Of a stretch of 64,000 nt of DNA, positions 2,662-12,432 are shown piece after piece. A program made the position numbers and the translations under genes. Origin of the DNA: a virus. A model generated the notes under the pieces. The model saw only the letters and a list, made by a program, of their open reading frames with translations, searched no databases and was not told where the DNA came from. The stretch's first letter is position 1. Every line of letters starts with the position of its first letter. The stretch lies in the IMG/VR virus record IMGVR_UViG_3300027541_000009, positions 1-64,000 of that record. One strand, written 5' to 3'.

Positions 2662-3486
2662 ATGATGACTTCACAAAGTCCAAGAATTTACATATACAAA
2701 ATTACCTTTGAGGAAGTTTTGTATTACTATTACGGTGTTCATAAAGAAAAAACATATAATGAGTATTATATGGGTTCTCCTATAACAAACAAATGGTGTT
2801 GGGAACTTTATACTCCAAAGAAACAAATATTGGAATTATTTGAGTTTAGTGATGAAGGTTGGATAAAAGCACAAGAAGTTGAAAAAAGATTAATACGACC
2901 TTTTTTTAATACTGATAAATGGTGTTTGAATGAGGGTTGTGGAGGACAAGTTTCTCTTTCTATTAGAAGAAAAACTGGTAAAAATATCGCAGAAAGAAAT
3001 AAAGAAAAAAATATTGGTATATTTGTTATGACGCAAGAAGAACTATCTAAAGCAGGTAGAAAAGGTGGTAAAATGGGAGCAAGAACACAAATGCAAAATA
3101 AAACTGGAGTGTTTGGTAGAACCAAAGAACAAATGACGGAAGATGGTAAAAAGGGAGCACAAAAAGTAAAAGAACTTGGTATAGGAATATTCTCACTAAC
3201 AAGTGAAGAATTATCTGCCTCTGCTAAAAAAGCATATGCGAATGGACTTGCTAAATTACCAAAAGAAGTAAGAAGTGAATATGGTAGAATGGGAGCAAGA
3301 ACACAGATGAAAAATGGAACTGGTATTTTTTCTTTAACACCAGAACAAAAAAGTGAATTAGCAAAAAGAAATAACGCACAAAGATGGATGTGCCTTGAAA
3401 CTGGTTATGTTTCTAACTCTGGTGGTTTATCAAAATACCAGAAAGCAAAAGGTATTGATACTTCTAAAAGAAAACGAATAGCATAA
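2662..3486 (+). CDS. GIY-YIG homing endonuclease with NUMOD-like repeats
   Basis: Residues 9-50 hold the GIY-YIG nuclease start, seen as IYIYKIT followed by YYYYGVHK, and the EVEKRLIRPF helix at about residue 72 supplies the expected Glu. The C-terminal two thirds is a run of repeated DNA-binding motifs with GVFGRT, GIFSLT, GGKMGARTQM and a closing WMCLETGYVSNSGGLS-type element, as in NUMOD-bearing homing nucleases of cyanophages. Such enzymes cut a target locus and spread their own gene. It is freestanding, has its own late promoter and a terminator ahead of it, and no intron is evident. An ATG pair (MM) leaves the start uncertain by one residue. Confidence 0.88.
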   Translation: MMTSQSPRIYIYKITFEEVLYYYYGVHKEKTYNEYYMGSPITNKWCWELYTPKKQILELFEFSDEGWIKAQEVEKRLIRPFFNTDKWCLNEGCGGQVSLSIRRKTGKNIAERNKEKNIGIFVMTQEELSKAGRKGGKMGARTQMQNKTGVFGRTKEQMTEDGKKGAQKVKELGIGIFSLTSEELSASAKKAYANGLAKLPKEVRSEYGRMGARTQMKNGTGIFSLTPEQKSELAKRNNAQRWMCLETGYVSNSGGLSKYQKAKGIDTSKRKRIA

Positions 3487-3544
3487 GGACACTTTACGAA
3501 CTGGAACACGGGCACTTGAAAACGGATGCCCTTTGTCGTATAAT
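3487..3544 (+). promoter_or_regulatory. Sigma70-like promoter with upstream half-palindrome
   Basis: -35 TTGAAA (3516-3521), 17-bp spacer, -10 TATAAT (3539-3544). GGACACTT (3487-3494) and AACTGG (3499-3504) form an imperfect dyad centred about 54 bases before the predicted start site. Drives the gene run from 3568. Confidence 0.7.
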
Positions 3545-3567
3545 ATTTTCATACACACAGACACCTG

Positions 3568-3756
3568 ATGACTGACGAACAAATCCTTAACCTTGCTGAA
3601 AAGCATCTTGAAGTATTGGTTGATGATTATGAGGGAATAGAGTATTTTTCTTCAACCAAAAAACAAATGGTTGAGTTTGCCCTAAAAATCCACGAAATGG
3701 GTTATAATATGGGAAGAATGGAAGGACTTGAAGTAGGACTGACAAACAATGATTGA
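3568..3756 (+). CDS. Small helical protein, 62 aa
   Basis: Starts MTDEQILNLAEKHLEVL and is predicted all-helical; C-terminus is Gly/Met-rich (MGYNMGRMEGLEVG). First gene after a sigma70-like promoter, and it overlaps the next gene by 8 bases. Function unknown. Confidence 0.7.
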   Translation: MTDEQILNLAEKHLEVLVDDYEGIEYFSSTKKQMVEFALKIHEMGYNMGRMEGLEVGLTNND

Positions 3757-7090: not shown

Positions 7091-7351
7091 ATGTCTTTCT
7101 TCGATCAAATCCGCACTGCTGATCAATCTGCTCCTGTGACTCTGCTTCTGAATGAAGAAAGCATCACTCTCAATGCAGATCAATTCCGTGGTAAAACTGT
7201 TTCCCAACTGTTCGGAGAGTATGGTCACACTCTTGGGAATGTCTCTCGCATCAACCGTTTTGTTCTCAACGGTGAGGTTGTTCCTGGTGATACCGTAGTG
7301 CGTCCTGGTGAAACTGTGCGGGGTGCAGTTTCTTCCGAAAGCAAAGGTTGA
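7091..7351 (+). CDS. Ubiquitin-like beta-grasp protein (PRTRC-C / ThiS-MoaD like)
   Basis: 86 residues. Residues 15-80 follow the beta-grasp order: strand VTLLLN, strand ESITLN, helix with GKTVSQLFGEYG, strand SRINRFVLNGEVV, then PGDTVVRPGETVRGAV. The last part matches the 'NGE-V--D-----GD-V' pattern of ThiS/MoaD-type modifiers. The chain ends SSESKG, a single terminal Gly after Lys rather than the Gly-Gly of ThiS and MoaD. As I recall, bacterial PRTRC protein C also ends in Lys-Gly. A protein of this kind would be adenylated at its C-terminal Gly by the E1-like enzyme at 9630 and attached to targets or used as a sulphur carrier. A terminator follows it. Activity and targets are inference. 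Confidence 0.75.
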   Translation: MSFFDQIRTADQSAPVTLLLNEESITLNADQFRGKTVSQLFGEYGHTLGNVSRINRFVLNGEVVPGDTVVRPGETVRGAVSSESKG

Positions 7352-7372
7352 TCACAATAACTCTGATTTGAA

Positions 7373-7406
7373 ACCACATCAGTTTTTCTGATGTGGTAAT
7401 TTTTTA
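7373..7406 (+). terminator. Strong Rho-independent terminator after the Ubl gene
   Basis: Perfect 10-bp stem ACCACATCAG / CTGATGTGGT with a T5 loop, then AA and a T6 run. It would let the small modifier be made in excess over the downstream enzymes, or partly uncouple them. Confidence 0.85.
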
Positions 7407-7426
7407 TTATTCTACACACTAAATCA

Positions 7427-8512
7427 ATGACTGCTGTTACTGAAGAAATTCAAGATCAAACTGTCCAACAACAAGAAACTCCTAGTGTTCTTCGCACTCG
7501 TAGAGATGGTGTGTGGGAAATTTATGATGGTCCTTGGGGTTCTTATCTACGGGTAACTGATGATCCCGAAGCAAATGTAGAAATTACCGAAGATCATCTT
7601 AAAAAGTTTGAACTGAAAAAAGATATTCACCGCATCCCTGCAGAACTTTGGGCACGTTGGGTTAAACTTTGTTTCTATTTTGTAGACAAAGTTCCCAACT
7701 CTGTGGAAGTTTCTATTCGTATTCTTCGCAGTCAGGAAGATCCTAGTCAATATCGTTTTCTCGTTCCTCGTCAGAAAGTCTCTGGTGCTTCTGTGCGAGT
7801 GGAAAACTTTGATGAGGCAGTTGATATTGAGACTGGTGAAGAGATCGAACAGTATCCCCCTTCTGGTTGGATTCCTGTAGGATCTTCTCACTCTCACAAT
7901 ACCATGCAAGCATTCTTCTCAGGTATTGATGACAAATATGAACTTGATGATCCTGGTATTCACCTAGTCATCGGTTCAGTTGACACCAAAAACATGAAGT
8001 ATACTATTGCATCTTCTGTTGTTGGAAGTCGTCGTCGGTTTGAGTTGCCTTATGATAATCTCGTAGATGCAACTCCCGTGGAAGGTGTAAATTTCCATCC
8101 TAAAGTGATTGATTATGTTGATTGGTCAACACCTACTGTAGTTACTCCTAAGAAGTCTGGTGGTTCTTTCCTTAAAGTTCCTACCCAATGGACTAAAAAG
8201 GTATCGGATACTCCCAAAAATAACTTCAACAGTATGGAGTATTGGGGTTGGAATGATTCCGATGATTATAATGATCCTTTTTATTGGAATACTTCTTATT
8301 CTAATAAAGATGATGATATGGGTTTAGATTCAGTTAAGATCTGGCACATTACAGATACACTTAATGATTTTATGAATCAGAATAAAACTGAAGTCCACAA
8401 ACTCAATAATCTTAGGGAAGAACTCTATGACTTTTTGAGTGACTTGGAAGTTCTGTTGGATTCTCAAATCGAACAGAACTTCGAAGAACTTATTGAAAGT
8501 AACGTATATTGA
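7427..8512 (+). CDS. JAB/MPN (JAMM) metalloprotease, deubiquitinase-like
   Basis: 361 residues. The complete JAMM zinc motif is visible: H155-S-H157, seven residues, S165, two residues, D168 (HSHNTMQAFFSGIDD), with Glu94 (NSVEVSIRIL) upstream as the likely catalytic Glu. Residues 20-80 form an N-terminal extension with Trp-rich strands. Residues 90-215 make the JAB fold (SGWIPVGSSHSHN, IHLVIGSVD). Residues 230-361 are an Asn/Asp-rich linker and a helical, possibly coiled-coil tail. JAB enzymes cut isopeptide bonds to ubiquitin-like proteins or trim their C-termini; PRTRC cassettes include a JAB-type protein A. Position between the Ubl and E1 genes makes processing or removal of that Ubl its likely job. 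No -10 was found in the gap upstream, so it may depend on read-through of the terminator. Confidence 0.9.
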   Translation: MTAVTEEIQDQTVQQQETPSVLRTRRDGVWEIYDGPWGSYLRVTDDPEANVEITEDHLKKFELKKDIHRIPAELWARWVKLCFYFVDKVPNSVEVSIRILRSQEDPSQYRFLVPRQKVSGASVRVENFDEAVDIETGEEIEQYPPSGWIPVGSSHSHNTMQAFFSGIDDKYELDDPGIHLVIGSVDTKNMKYTIASSVVGSRRRFELPYDNLVDATPVEGVNFHPKVIDYVDWSTPTVVTPKKSGGSFLKVPTQWTKKVSDTPKNNFNSMEYWGWNDSDDYNDPFYWNTSYSNKDDDMGLDSVKIWHITDTLNDFMNQNKTEVHKLNNLREELYDFLSDLEVLLDSQIEQNFEELIESNVY

Positions 8513-8518
8513 TATACC

Positions 8519-8544
8519 CCTGGACAGTTTCCGAACTGTCCAGG
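8519..8544 (+). terminator. Long hairpin between JAB and the Cys-rich gene
   Basis: Perfect 11-bp stem CCTGGACAGTT / AACTGTCCAGG with a TCCG loop. No T run follows (ATTCCCCC), so it may be an mRNA stabiliser, processing site or factor-dependent terminator rather than an intrinsic one. Confidence 0.6.
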
Positions 8545-8564
8545 ATTCCCCCATTTAAAGAGAA

Positions 8565-9554
8565 ATGTCTGCTACACTACTGGAACAACCAAGAACGGAA
8601 ATGTCTGTAATTTTTCCAACTAAACCTGCAACTGTGAAACTGCATCCTCTTCCTAAAAATGCAGAGGCAATTACATATCGAGTAGAAGATAATATTATTC
8701 TTTCTGCATGGATGCCTGATGGTTATCATACTGTGCAAGAGCAATATGAAATGACTGATGATGATTTTTACCATGAGAACTGTGAGGGATGTGAACGTAA
8801 TTGTTATTCATTTCTAAATCAGTATACTGATGAAGAAACTGATGAAGTAGATTGGGATCAAGTTCCTGGTGGTTATTATGGACATTGCAATGTTTATGAT
8901 GAAGGTTATTGTGGTCAAGATTGTCCTGAAGGTCATGTAAAAAAAGATTCCAATCTGGAATTTGATATTTCTAACATGGTGTTTGAAATTTCACTCACTC
9001 ATCTTGGAGATTCTGCACGTTTTACTCCAGTTGCTGATAGTGCATATCTTGCCGCAGGTGTTTTTACTAATGATAATGTAAAAAGTACAGAAACTAGGAT
9101 GCCCGCAAATGTTTTCGGTTCCGAAGACAACCCTGAAGGTATTTGCTGGGGATATAATAGCAAACCACATACTCTCAGGGAAATTGTAACTGAATATTAC
9201 AACACTCCATTTAACAATGATCTCACACCCATCGAGTGCTTTGAGGAAAATTGTAGGAGTATTCGATCTATGAAAAATCGTCATGACTTCTGCAGTACAG
9301 ATGATAATTATCTTTGCCAAGGTGCAGATCAACTAATCATGGTAGATGCAGAGAAAAATAAGACTGCATTTTTCCATCTCCTGACTGCAGGATACAAGTC
9401 ACTATCAAAAGCACCCCATATTATGATACTCCCTGTCAAAGAGAGTACTATTCATAAAAATGGAAATGTATTTGAAGGATATTTGACAGATGAAGATTCT
9501 GTGGGAAAGCAGTGGTTTATTACAACTGATGGTCTTTTGATTGGTCAGGTGTGA
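8565..9554 (+). CDS. Cysteine-rich protein in the Ubl cassette, PRTRC-B-like candidate
   Basis: 329 residues. Residues 66-122 hold six Cys (C73, C76, C80, C108, C116, C120) in spacing suggestive of one or two zinc knuckles. Residues 178-220 contain RMPANVF, then EGICWGYN (C194) and YYNTPFNNDL, which resemble my recollection of the conserved C-W-G-N region of PRTRC protein B. Further Cys are at 225, 230, 243 and 251. Gene order (Ubl, JAB, this, ThiF) also puts it where a PRTRC-B or E2-like partner would be. C194 is the obvious candidate if it carries a thioester, but this is inference; a purely structural or target-recruiting zinc protein is equally possible. Its TGA is embedded in the palindrome of the next promoter. 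Confidence 0.6.
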   Translation: MSATLLEQPRTEMSVIFPTKPATVKLHPLPKNAEAITYRVEDNIILSAWMPDGYHTVQEQYEMTDDDFYHENCEGCERNCYSFLNQYTDEETDEVDWDQVPGGYYGHCNVYDEGYCGQDCPEGHVKKDSNLEFDISNMVFEISLTHLGDSARFTPVADSAYLAAGVFTNDNVKSTETRMPANVFGSEDNPEGICWGYNSKPHTLREIVTEYYNTPFNNDLTPIECFEENCRSIRSMKNRHDFCSTDDNYLCQGADQLIMVDAEKNKTAFFHLLTAGYKSLSKAPHIMILPVKESTIHKNGNVFEGYLTDEDSVGKQWFITTDGLLIGQV

Positions 9555-9608
9555 CACTTTTTCAGGTGTCCACTACCCCTTCAAAAGTCCATCCTCACCT
9601 GCTATAAT
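9551..9608 (+). promoter_or_regulatory. Promoter of the E1-like gene
   Basis: Extended -10 TGC-TATAAT (TATAAT 9603-9608). Dyad GACAC (9553-9557) / GTGTC (9566-9570) is centred 53.5 bases before the predicted start. The upstream stop codon lies inside the dyad. Confidence 0.7.
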
Positions 9609-9629
9609 AACTTCATAATCAAAAAACAA

Positions 9630-10343
9630 ATGAATTTCACTCCCGACAAAACTTTCGTTATTGGTTCTGGTGGAAGTGGTGGTCATCTTATTCCAGCACT
9701 TGCTCGTCTCCTTGCATATCACAAAAATACGCAAGATTCTACTCTAACCGTCATTGATGGGGATGAGTATGAAGAAAAGAATATGACTAGGCAAATTGTT
9801 GCACCTTCTCAGGTGGGATTGAACAAAGCACAAGCAATGAAAGACTTCTGTAATTATCAGGGTCTTGAGAACGTAGATTATAAAGCAGATTTCATTTCTG
9901 CTTCTACGTTTATTCCAATGCTTCGACGTTCAGAAGCACCTATGGTCATTGCATGTGTAGATAATGATGCAACTCGTCTTGCACTTATCAATGCAATCAA
10001 TTCAATGCCTGAAGATAAAGACTTTTTCTTCATCACTCCTGGTAACTCTGATGGAGTTGAAGATGTAAAAGGTCAAACTCTTTGGTATGGTAGAATCGGT
10101 GGAGTTAAAGTTGGTTGTAATCCTGCTCTAGTGTATCCCAACATTGATAATCCTCAAGATAGTATTCCACATCAAGGATCTTGTGCTCTTCATGCACCTT
10201 CTCGTCCTCAACTGATTGCTGCTAATTTTATGGCAGCATCTATTACTCTGATGGTGATTCAAAATCTTTTGGATGGTCAAATTGATCCATCTCAAAGTTC
10301 TATGTTCTTTAATCTTCGTAACCTGAAGACATCTGCTGCATGA
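9630..10343 (+). CDS. ThiF/E1-like ubiquitin-activating enzyme (PRTRC-ThiF-like)
   Basis: 237 residues, the size of a single adenylating domain. ATP-binding loop GSGGSGG (12-18), the acidic strand TVIDGDEYEEKNMTRQ with D43, D45, N51, R54 and Q55, K66 in VGLNKAQAM, and ACVDNDATR (109-116) are the standard E1/ThiF/MoeB motifs in order. C185 in HQGSCALHAPSRPQLIAANF resembles the S-C-L---A...Q--IN--A stretch I recall from PRTRC ThiF proteins and is the candidate catalytic Cys. The paired CxxC zinc site of MoeB/ThiF is not visible. It would adenylate the C-terminus of the 86-aa Ubl. It has its own promoter, so its level can be set apart from the modifier. Confidence 0.9.
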   Translation: MNFTPDKTFVIGSGGSGGHLIPALARLLAYHKNTQDSTLTVIDGDEYEEKNMTRQIVAPSQVGLNKAQAMKDFCNYQGLENVDYKADFISASTFIPMLRRSEAPMVIACVDNDATRLALINAINSMPEDKDFFFITPGNSDGVEDVKGQTLWYGRIGGVKVGCNPALVYPNIDNPQDSIPHQGSCALHAPSRPQLIAANFMAASITLMVIQNLLDGQIDPSQSSMFFNLRNLKTSAA

Positions 10344-10422: not shown

Positions 10423-10758
10423 ATGTCCACCGAAACTATTGCTGTCAACGACAATCTAGTTAAAATTGATAATGTTTTGACTGCTTTGAACTACCTCCTA
10501 GAGGAAGTTCAGACTCGAAAAGAACAAATTGTCAATTCTATTGACGTTGGTGAAAAAGTTCGCAATGAAATCAACACCCGTCGATTCAAAGATGAATTGT
10601 TTTATTACATTCGCAATGAATATGGTGAGGGTCTTTGTCGTGAAGTTGCATTTATGGTAATGGAACGAATTGATGATGATATTGAAGCATTTATCAATTC
10701 TCGGGTAAACAAAGCACTTGCTGCTGCAGGTGTCAATCTAAACAACAATAACGTCTGA
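10423..10758 (+). CDS. Unknown helical protein, 111 aa
   Basis: Predicted helical with a heptad-like N-terminus (DNVLTALNYLLEEVQTRKEQIV) and an Asn-rich end. It follows the E1-like gene but has its own promoter, so membership of that cassette is not established. Overlaps the next gene by one base (TGATG). Function unknown. Confidence 0.72.
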   Translation: MSTETIAVNDNLVKIDNVLTALNYLLEEVQTRKEQIVNSIDVGEKVRNEINTRRFKDELFYYIRNEYGEGLCREVAFMVMERIDDDIEAFINSRVNKALAAAGVNLNNNNV

Positions 10759-11674: not shown

Positions 11675-11680
11675 TATTAT

Positions 11681-11753
11681 GGGCAAGTAGCATAATGGAT
11701 AATGCATCAACCTTCTAAGTTGCCGATTGTAGGTTCGAGTCCTACCTTGCCTG
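11681..11753 (+). tRNA. tRNA-Arg (anticodon TCT)
   Basis: Cloverleaf: acceptor GGGCAAG / CTTGCCT (one G-T), D stem GCAT/ATGC, anticodon loop CTTCTAA with TCT at 11714-11716, T arm GTAGG-TTCGAGT-CCTAC. Outer anticodon-stem pair is a T-C mismatch. No encoded CCA. It reads AGA, frequent in these AT-rich structural genes. Confidence 0.92.
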
Positions 11754-11780
11754 TTAGATTCTAATTAGAATCTAAATTAT

Positions 11781-11868
11781 GCGAGTGAGACTTGGTAGTC
11801 AGAGAGGTCTTATAAACCTTTTCCGCCAGATTAGCGGCTTTGAGATGGTTCGAATCCATCCACTCGTA
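11781..11868 (+). tRNA. Class II tRNA with long variable arm, anticodon TAT; identity unclear (Leu-like scaffold)
   Basis: Acceptor GCGAGTG / CACTCGT with discriminator A, T arm GATGG-TTCGAAT-CCATC, and a long variable arm (CCGC / GCGG stem, 11823-11836), the class II form of Leu, Ser and bacterial Tyr tRNAs. The anticodon stem GAGGT / ACCTT closes a 7-base loop CTTATAA, giving TAT at 11811-11813, formally an Ile anticodon. The D arm is short (GAC / GTC around TTGGTA). The scaffold and A73 fit a leucine tRNA, for which TAA would be expected, so it is a degenerate Leu tRNA or a reassigned one. Confidence 0.75.
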
Positions 11869-11890
11869 TTACTCTAAACTACACTTAGAG

Positions 11891-11898
11891 TATAAATA
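11891..11898 (+). promoter_or_regulatory. Late promoter motif TATAAATA
   Basis: Exact octamer 32 bp before the ATG of the HNH gene; same arrangement as at the GIY-YIG gene. Confidence 0.65.
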
Positions 11899-11922
11899 AA
11901 TGTGTAGAGTGATCTAACTCCT

Positions 11923-12339
11923 ATGATAGGAAAATGTAAAAACTGCGAAAAAAACTTTAAGTATTCTCCATCACAAGGAAAAGGAATTTATTGTTCAAAT
12001 AAATGCCAACAAAAAGATTACTACAAACAAAATATTACCGATTGGTTATCCAAAAAAATAACTGGAAAGGTTAGAGATGGAAGACCAAGTGATTTTGTTA
12101 GAAGGTATATGCTTGAAGAAGCAGGATACAAATGTTCTGAATGTGGTTGGGGAAAAGCAAATCCAACAAATGGTATTATCTATCTTGAAATAGACCACAT
12201 AGATGGTTCAAGAAAAAATGGGTATAGGGAAAATCTTAGAGTATTATGTCCCAATTGCCATACCTTAACTAATACCTACAAAACACTAAACAAAAATATA
12301 GGGTATCACAAATCAAGAAAACAACAATTAAATGATTAA
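11923..12339 (+). CDS. HNH homing endonuclease inserted in the tRNA cluster
   Basis: 138 residues. An N-terminal zinc knuckle (CKNCEKNF, then YCSNKC; residues 5-30) is followed by an HNH nuclease: CSECGW, LEIDHIDGSRKNG with the D-H pair, ENLRVLCPNCHT. Such enzymes nick or cut DNA and often move into tRNA clusters of phages. It lies three bases before the CAT tRNA and has its own late promoter, consistent with insertion as a mobile unit. No intron is evident. Confidence 0.9.
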   Translation: MIGKCKNCEKNFKYSPSQGKGIYCSNKCQQKDYYKQNITDWLSKKITGKVRDGRPSDFVRRYMLEEAGYKCSECGWGKANPTNGIIYLEIDHIDGSRKNGYRENLRVLCPNCHTLTNTYKTLNKNIGYHKSRKQQLND

Positions 12340-12342
12340 CTT

Positions 12343-12415
12343 GCTGGTTTAGCTATCTGGTGAAAGCACCCGACTCATAATCGGTATCAGGTGGGTTCGA
12401 TCCCCTCAACCAGCA
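12343..12415 (+). tRNA. tRNA with CAT anticodon (Met or lysidine-type Ile)
   Basis: Acceptor GCTGGTT / AACCAGC, discriminator A, anticodon loop CTCATAA with CAT at 12376-12378, T loop TTCGATC. One T-stem pair (T-T) and one anticodon-stem pair are mismatched. The sequence cannot separate elongator Met from Ile(CAT) read by a lysidine-modified C; the first G-C pair argues against an initiator. Confidence 0.9.
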
Positions 12416-12432
12416 CTTAATTTTTACTTACA

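Follow-up and report, generated by a model that had tools for sequence, protein, structure and literature searches.

What purpose might a set of genes resembling a ubiquitin-conjugation pathway serve in the genome of a cyanophage? The question is raised by a locus in a viral stretch of 64,000 nucleotides (the window; positions 1 to 64,000 of IMG/VR record IMGVR_UViG_3300027541_000009, which has 284,050 bases in total). Between positions 7091 and 10343, four plus-strand open reading frames (ORFs) encode a ubiquitin-like protein (Ubl), a JAB protein, a third protein with a cysteine motif (B) and an E1-like enzyme (Table 1). Coordinates and frames were checked, and the four ORFs follow each other as given in the preliminary description of this DNA. 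We read the cassette as a phage-resident, reversible Ubl-conjugation system of the 6d/PRTRC kind, with a probability of roughly 0.6. The earlier assignment of the record to a T4-like cyanophage is upheld by its gene content, because it carries a T4-type Gp23 capsid gene, two Photo_RC genes (D1/D2-type photosystem) and a neck protein (gp13) resembling those of Synechococcus phages, with an identity of at most 61 %; gp13 of the window was matched by 439 records named after Synechococcus phages or cyanophages.

As described by Iyer et al. (2006, PMC1779556), operons of type 6d encode a Ub-like protein that ends in Gly, together with a JAB, an E1-like and an E2-like protein, the last of these carrying a conserved Cys. 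They are the same system as the A/B/C/ThiF core of the PRTRC plasmids. The E1-like enzyme of the cassette matched Pfam ThiF with 39 bits (cut-off 28.1), and its best NCBIfam match was PRTRC_ThiF (1.2e-16; 60.8 bits, curated cut-off 144.75 not reached), which bears out its original annotation. GxGGxG, D43, R54, K66, D111 and C185 are the predicted catalytic residues. C185 is present in 133/133 relatives and the ATP-site residues in essentially all of them; this and the following counts of relatives include near-identical contigs and some prophages. The enzyme aligns with plasmid PRTRC members across the catalytic residues, stands alone without a rhodanese domain, and its profile matches MccB, UBA3, UBA5, ThiF, MoeB and Uba4. 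The best PADLOC match was a partial E1-E2 hit (5.6e-8), while BilD gave 0.0026. Another ThiF-type E1 match is PDB 9egb-9egd, for which the literature search found no accompanying paper.

A quick tree calculated without bootstrap grouped the window E1 with those of nine other viral contigs in one clade (SH-aLRT 95), distinct from the PRTRC E1s of plasmids and cyanobacteria, and the best matches in 84,980 species genomes were about 30 % identical. On these two results, we rejected a recent transfer from a cyanobacterial plasmid. Among annotated phages, tblastn with E1 returned three records only, none of them a cyanophage, and a DNA search found no relative.

The JAB protein matched Prok-JAB just over the cut-off (26.9 bits, cut-off 25) and PRTRC_A at 3e-5 (23.7 bits, curated cut-off 101.8 not reached). 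The complete motif reported for it is indeed present: the JAMM residues E94, H155, H157, S165 and D168 are invariant in five phage proteins, and the motif occurs in 103 of 109 relatives, several of the misses being truncated or intron-split genes. Compared by eye, the JAB-N region reads DGVWEIYDGPWGSYL in the window and NGVFLEITRPWLRVV in plasmid protein A; the Trp is kept, the Arg is not. No NlpC/P60 match was seen for the window JAB. In two contigs, group I introns (Rfam RF00028) split the JAB gene just after the HSH metal-binding codons (L012, 3966-4202; L016, 3422-3695), and L016 holds a homing-endonuclease-like ORF at 2676-3581.

For the Ubl, searched alone, Pfam, NCBIfam, PHROGs and PADLOC gave no useful match. 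Its AlphaFold2 model (predicted local distance difference test, pLDDT, 78.9) is built as beta-beta-alpha-beta-beta-beta with a loose tail, and Foldseek placed it next to TGS domains, designed ubiquitin, SUMO and Urm1 (probability about 1, template-modelling score 0.5-0.6), in agreement with the beta-grasp protein ending in Lys-Gly that had been proposed. Orthologues were found in L003, L075, L012, L013, L014 and L015. The end SSESKG is shared by the window and L013, with TSESKG in L075 and TSEAKG in L015; two proteins run past KG (SSESKGLG in L003, AEGKGAA in L012). Plasmid PRTRC-C proteins end in GTKG, AKG or IKG, with or without an extension, one of them in KA. In other phages, genes for tandem PRTRC-C-like units, each closed by AGTKG, AGVKG or TGTKG, lie near JAB, E2-like and E1-like genes in a polyubiquitin-like layout (Table 1). 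Lys-Gly is likely the processed and activated end of the Ubl, because tandem units and plasmid PRTRC-C share it. For CBASS, cleavage of a tandem fusion by the JAB protein Cap3 has been reported, and a single C-terminal Gly on the modifier is enough for Cap2 to form a thioester (PMC10097602).

The third protein had been described as a Cys-rich partner with the motif EGICWGYN; the motif stands, and the protein can be identified more closely. EGICWGYN...TPFNNDL of the window aligns on the PRTRC-B motif, with WLCWGSQ...NPFNHDL as the counterpart in Bacillus phage KLEB27-3, whose gp196 matches PRTRC_B at 0.0011. A profile from plasmid PRTRC-B and KLEB27-3 gp196, from which the window was excluded, found the B proteins of L012 (6.9e-7), L016 (3.5e-8) and L023 (8.8e-8), all homologues of window B. 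A profile-profile comparison with plasmid PRTRC-B (hhalign) gave a probability of 93.7 and an E-value of 1.9e-7 over the Cys region, Pfam Prok-E2_D was matched by 3/10 clade members (best 9.1e-6), and the Cys motif occurs in 94 of 106 relatives, compared with 2.8 expected in shuffled sequences. The clade has two traits of its own, a Cys-rich insertion (C73, C76 and C120 nearly invariant) and a C-terminal extension. In the model of B (pLDDT 77.6), a beta-meander precedes C194 and helices follow it. Judged by these alignments, the third protein is a divergent PRTRC-B/Prok-E2_D protein, the E2-like component, so that the window would hold the complete 6d core of Ubl, JAB, E1 and E2-like protein.

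The cassette thus resembles the 6d/PRTRC systems in its Ubl with C-terminal Gly, its JAB, its rhodanese-free stand-alone E1 and its stand-alone E2-like protein with a conserved Cys, and its E1 and B align with their plasmid counterparts over the catalytic residues. In contrast to plasmids, where the order is Ubl...B-JAB-E1, the cassette is arranged as Ubl-JAB-B-E1, resides in a phage genome and appears to be divided into separate transcription units; its B is enlarged and its Ubl is not PRTRC-C by sequence. No ParB (TIGR03734 or PF02195) was matched in the whole 284-kb record, nor were PRTRC_C and the PRTRC proteins E and F, whose models were silent in the controls as well. The PRTRC-like character initially proposed therefore stands for the 6d/PRTRC core, but strict NCBIfam membership fails on the cut-offs, the PRTRC-C sequence and ParB. 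From its sequence, the cassette is best described as a 6d system residing in a phage, with a changed gene order, a Ubl type of its own and an enlarged B.

Other phages combine B, JAB and E1 homologues as well: Bacillus phage KLEB27-3, Vibrio phage D69, Salmonella phage Arash and the large IMG/VR contigs L029-L032 and L067. Unlike the cassette, these sets keep the plasmid order B-JAB-E1, several have tandem poly-Ubl genes, and their E1s fall elsewhere in the E1 tree. Vibrio phage D69 had been considered a JAB-only case, which is ruled out by its B, its ThiF homologue and a 3-unit Ubl. Bil, like CBASS, is a host defence system. The cassette shares with CBASS type II Cap2/Cap3 and with Bil the E1/E2/JAB logic and a modifier ending in a single Gly. 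In Cap2, by contrast, E1 and E2 form one fused protein, and the conjugation target is the cGAS-like enzyme (PMC10097602). A CBASS/Bil gene set was not recovered from the window: there is no fused E1-E2, and Ubl, JAB and B give no PADLOC match, E1 only the partial one. A phage JAB beside a ThiS/MoaD-like Ubl is also known from the lambda-type tail assembly proteins K and I (PMC1779556); these sets lack an E1 or E2-like protein, while the cassette JAB is of the PRTRC-A type.

Search profiles built only from the window, L002, L003 and L075 recovered the four proteins, in unchanged order, from distant contigs as well, and the Ubl profile matched L012 (6.8e-30), L014 (5.6e-22), L013 (8.9e-19) and L015 (4.1e-8). 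The order Ubl-JAB-B-E1 is found in L003, L075, L012, L013, L014 and L015, JAB-B-E1 in L016 and L023, and L002 is cut at the contig end. The cassette appears to travel as a unit, because its neighbourhood in L012-L015 shows hardly any other match to the window's first 25 kb. A possible fifth member is the gene after E1, whose profile matches directly after E1 in L002, L003, L075 and L012 (1.5e-12) and weakly in L014 (1.4e-4); Pfam gave no match for its product. Among close relatives, dN/dS values of 0.10-0.33 point to purifying selection on the four genes. E1, JAB and B occur together in 49 of the 70 viral loci examined, 19 of them with a recognised Ubl; the set is not unique to this phage, a point missing from the preliminary description. 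Three outcomes had been named beforehand as telling against the preliminary description, namely a Ubl without beta-grasp fold, a fourth protein without E1 similarity and relatives without the gene association; a beta-grasp is predicted, the similarity is present and the relatives keep the association. Observed here are the components and their arrangement, the conservation of catalytic residues, purifying selection and an association across viruses. A related group (L017, L020, L039, L059, L089 from an archaeal metagenome-assembled genome, and others), found in viral contigs and an archaeal assembly, encodes a very large protein with B homology inside, together with JAB, E1 and a second ThiF-like gene.

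The terminator announced after the Ubl gene was found, and it is the only terminator-like site within 4 kb, although such sites are no more frequent than in shuffled sequences (1 vs 2.1 expected). A strong hairpin stands at this place in 7/7 contigs read (window, L003, L075, L012, L013, L014 and L015) with unrelated stem sequences; its T-run is clear in the window, L003, L012 and L013, short or weak in L075 and L014, and absent in L015. By its position, we take the site to be a genuine terminator, and a separate expression of the Ubl modifier appears well supported. Since the Ubl would be transcribed as its own unit, the modifier may exceed the enzymes. The window also has a strong hairpin without T-run between JAB and B, and L003 and L075 have hairpins there too. 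The separate E1 promoter that had been suggested is matched by a TG-extended site, and a TGCTAT-like motif was seen by eye in the corresponding position of L003 and L075; however, promoter-like sites are not in excess in the region (10 vs 12.3 in shuffles).

Table 1. Features of the cassette and of related loci (window positions unless a contig is named).
Feature	Position	Strand	Description and basis
Ubl, predicted beta-grasp modifier	7091..7351	+	86 amino acids (aa); C-terminal ...SSESKG; AlphaFold2, Foldseek, orthologues
JAB/JAMM isopeptidase-like protein, PRTRC-A-like	7427..8512	+	361 aa; HSHNTMQAFFSGIDD; Prok-JAB match
PRTRC-B/Prok-E2_D-like (E2-like) protein	8565..9554	+	329 aa; EGICWGYN; C194 in ICWG
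E1-like ThiF-family adenylyltransferase	9630..10343	+	237 aa; GSGGSGG, GSC; Pfam ThiF, PRTRC_ThiF
Putative intrinsic terminator after Ubl gene	7373..7397	+	10-bp stem and T-run
Strong hairpin between JAB and B genes	8519..8544	+	no T-run
Promoter-like site upstream of E1	9580..9608	+	TG-extended TTCAAA-17-TATAAT; sequence match
Possible fifth member	10423..10758	+	111 aa; alpha-helical-looking; no known family; linked downstream of E1
Poly-Ubl, four units	Bacillus phage KLEB27-3 gp199 (L007/L164)		units end KG
Poly-Ubl, six units	L029-L032 331-1410		units end KG
Poly-Ubl, two units	L067 1798-2178		units end KG
Poly-Ubl, three units	Vibrio phage D69 (L008 2265-3056)		units end KG
Poly-Ubl, five units	L069 1592-2698		units end KG
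Poly-Ubl, four units	Bacillus velezensis plasmid (L082 1009-1770)		units end KG

From these parts we infer each catalytic step and the biological role of the cassette. E1 would use ATP to adenylate Gly86 at the C-terminus of the Ubl and would then take the Ubl onto Cys185, from where it would pass to Cys194 of B. B would then attach the Ubl to amino groups of target proteins, perhaps helped by its Cys-rich insertion and C-terminal extension. JAB would trim Ubl precursors that extend past Lys-Gly and would also remove the tag. As to the role, our first choice is that host or phage proteins are modified in the course of infection.

Several observations weigh against a conjugation system of this kind. 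Window B alone has no useful match in Pfam, NCBIfam, PHROGs or PADLOC, and a Foldseek search of its model against the PDB returned no E2 structure among the matches; rotavirus VP8 and other low-probability matches of this search were taken as noise. The downstream His that Iyer et al. give as absolutely conserved in 6d E2-like proteins is an Asn in PFNNDL of the window, a position that is not His in the plasmid B proteins of Trichormus (PFNKDL) and Pseudanabaena (PFNNHL) either. An hhalign comparison found no sequence kinship between the Ubl and PRTRC-C (probability 0.4, E-value 0.15), and the Ubl of L014 ends in TDSKQA instead of KG. Finally, the folds of E1 and Ubl also serve in sulfur-carrier chemistry.

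The last point leads to a pathway in ThiS/MoaD/Urm1 style, in which the E1-adenylated Ubl is thiocarboxylated and gives its sulfur to a tRNA base or cofactor, with JAB only maturing the Ubl. Matches of the E1 profile to ThiF, MoeB and Uba4, Urm1 among the structural neighbours of the Ubl and tRNA genes about 1.3 kb downstream would all suit it. Still, we consider it quite unlikely, because a dedicated E2-like B with an invariant Cys accompanies E1 and the record gave no match to PF00266 (cysteine desulfurase-type) or PF01171 (tRNA-thiolase-type ATPase), although both models matched all controls; host enzymes could serve in their place. The missing rhodanese domain of E1 also speaks against sulfur transfer, and the poly-Ubl relatives fit a consumed tag better.

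The system might also tag phage structural proteins or aid assembly: in Salmonella phage Arash, homologues of E1 (gp246) and B (gp248) are encoded where the block of structural genes ends, and the depositors named both 'structural protein' on an unstated basis, which is a lead rather than proof. The cyanophage cassette, however, is located in an accessory region of small unknown genes and tRNAs, and the first large structural gene is about 23 kb away, making a virion-directed role unlikely. Anti-phage Ubl systems of hosts are known (PMC10097602), and PRTRC/6d sets do occur in cyanobacterial plasmids and genomes, so the phage Ubl, JAB or both could act as decoy or eraser against host Bil, CBASS Cap2/Cap3 or plasmid PRTRC, without forming conjugates. 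Yet a decoy or eraser needs neither E1 nor an E2-like protein, and the phage encodes the two, with their catalytic residues conserved and dN/dS low; furthermore, a deep split separates the cyanophage E1 from the E1s of cyanobacterial plasmids. Such a counter-defence seems quite improbable to us.

Genes for tRNA-Arg(tct), tRNA-Ile(tat) and tRNA-Met(cat) were located by ARAGORN at 11680-12416 of the window, with an HNH-like ORF at 11923-12339 (by eye) between them. On the other side of the cassette, 2662-3486 encodes a repeat-containing protein with a GIY-YIG-like start, YIYKITFEE..YYYGVHKE (by eye); its homologues sit elsewhere in L002 and L003, which suggests a mobile endonuclease.

Studies of Ubl conjugation in bacteria have mostly treated it as host defence or as a plasmid-borne curiosity. 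No description of phage-borne 6d sets was found in the open-access journal papers searched, among which those mentioning PRTRC were judged on title and abstract, and the main text of a survey of 224 jumbo phage genomes (PMC7824862) mentions neither JAB, E1-like, ThiF nor Ub-like proteins. A whole set in a phage reverses the question and asks what a virus gains from protein tagging. With odds somewhat short of even, we propose that complete Ubl-conjugation systems have resided since ancient times in lytic T4-like cyanophages and, separately, in several other groups of large phages, some making the modifier as a polyubiquitin-style precursor, and that these phages tag proteins of the infected cell with them. 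With the cassette, the unsolved 6d/PRTRC family gains small proteins that lend themselves to testing, and the poly-Ubl phages are a natural parallel to the polyubiquitin genes of eukaryotes. Such kits are known from bacterial plasmids; because many viruses have them too, protein tagging by viruses in bacteria can now be tested directly.

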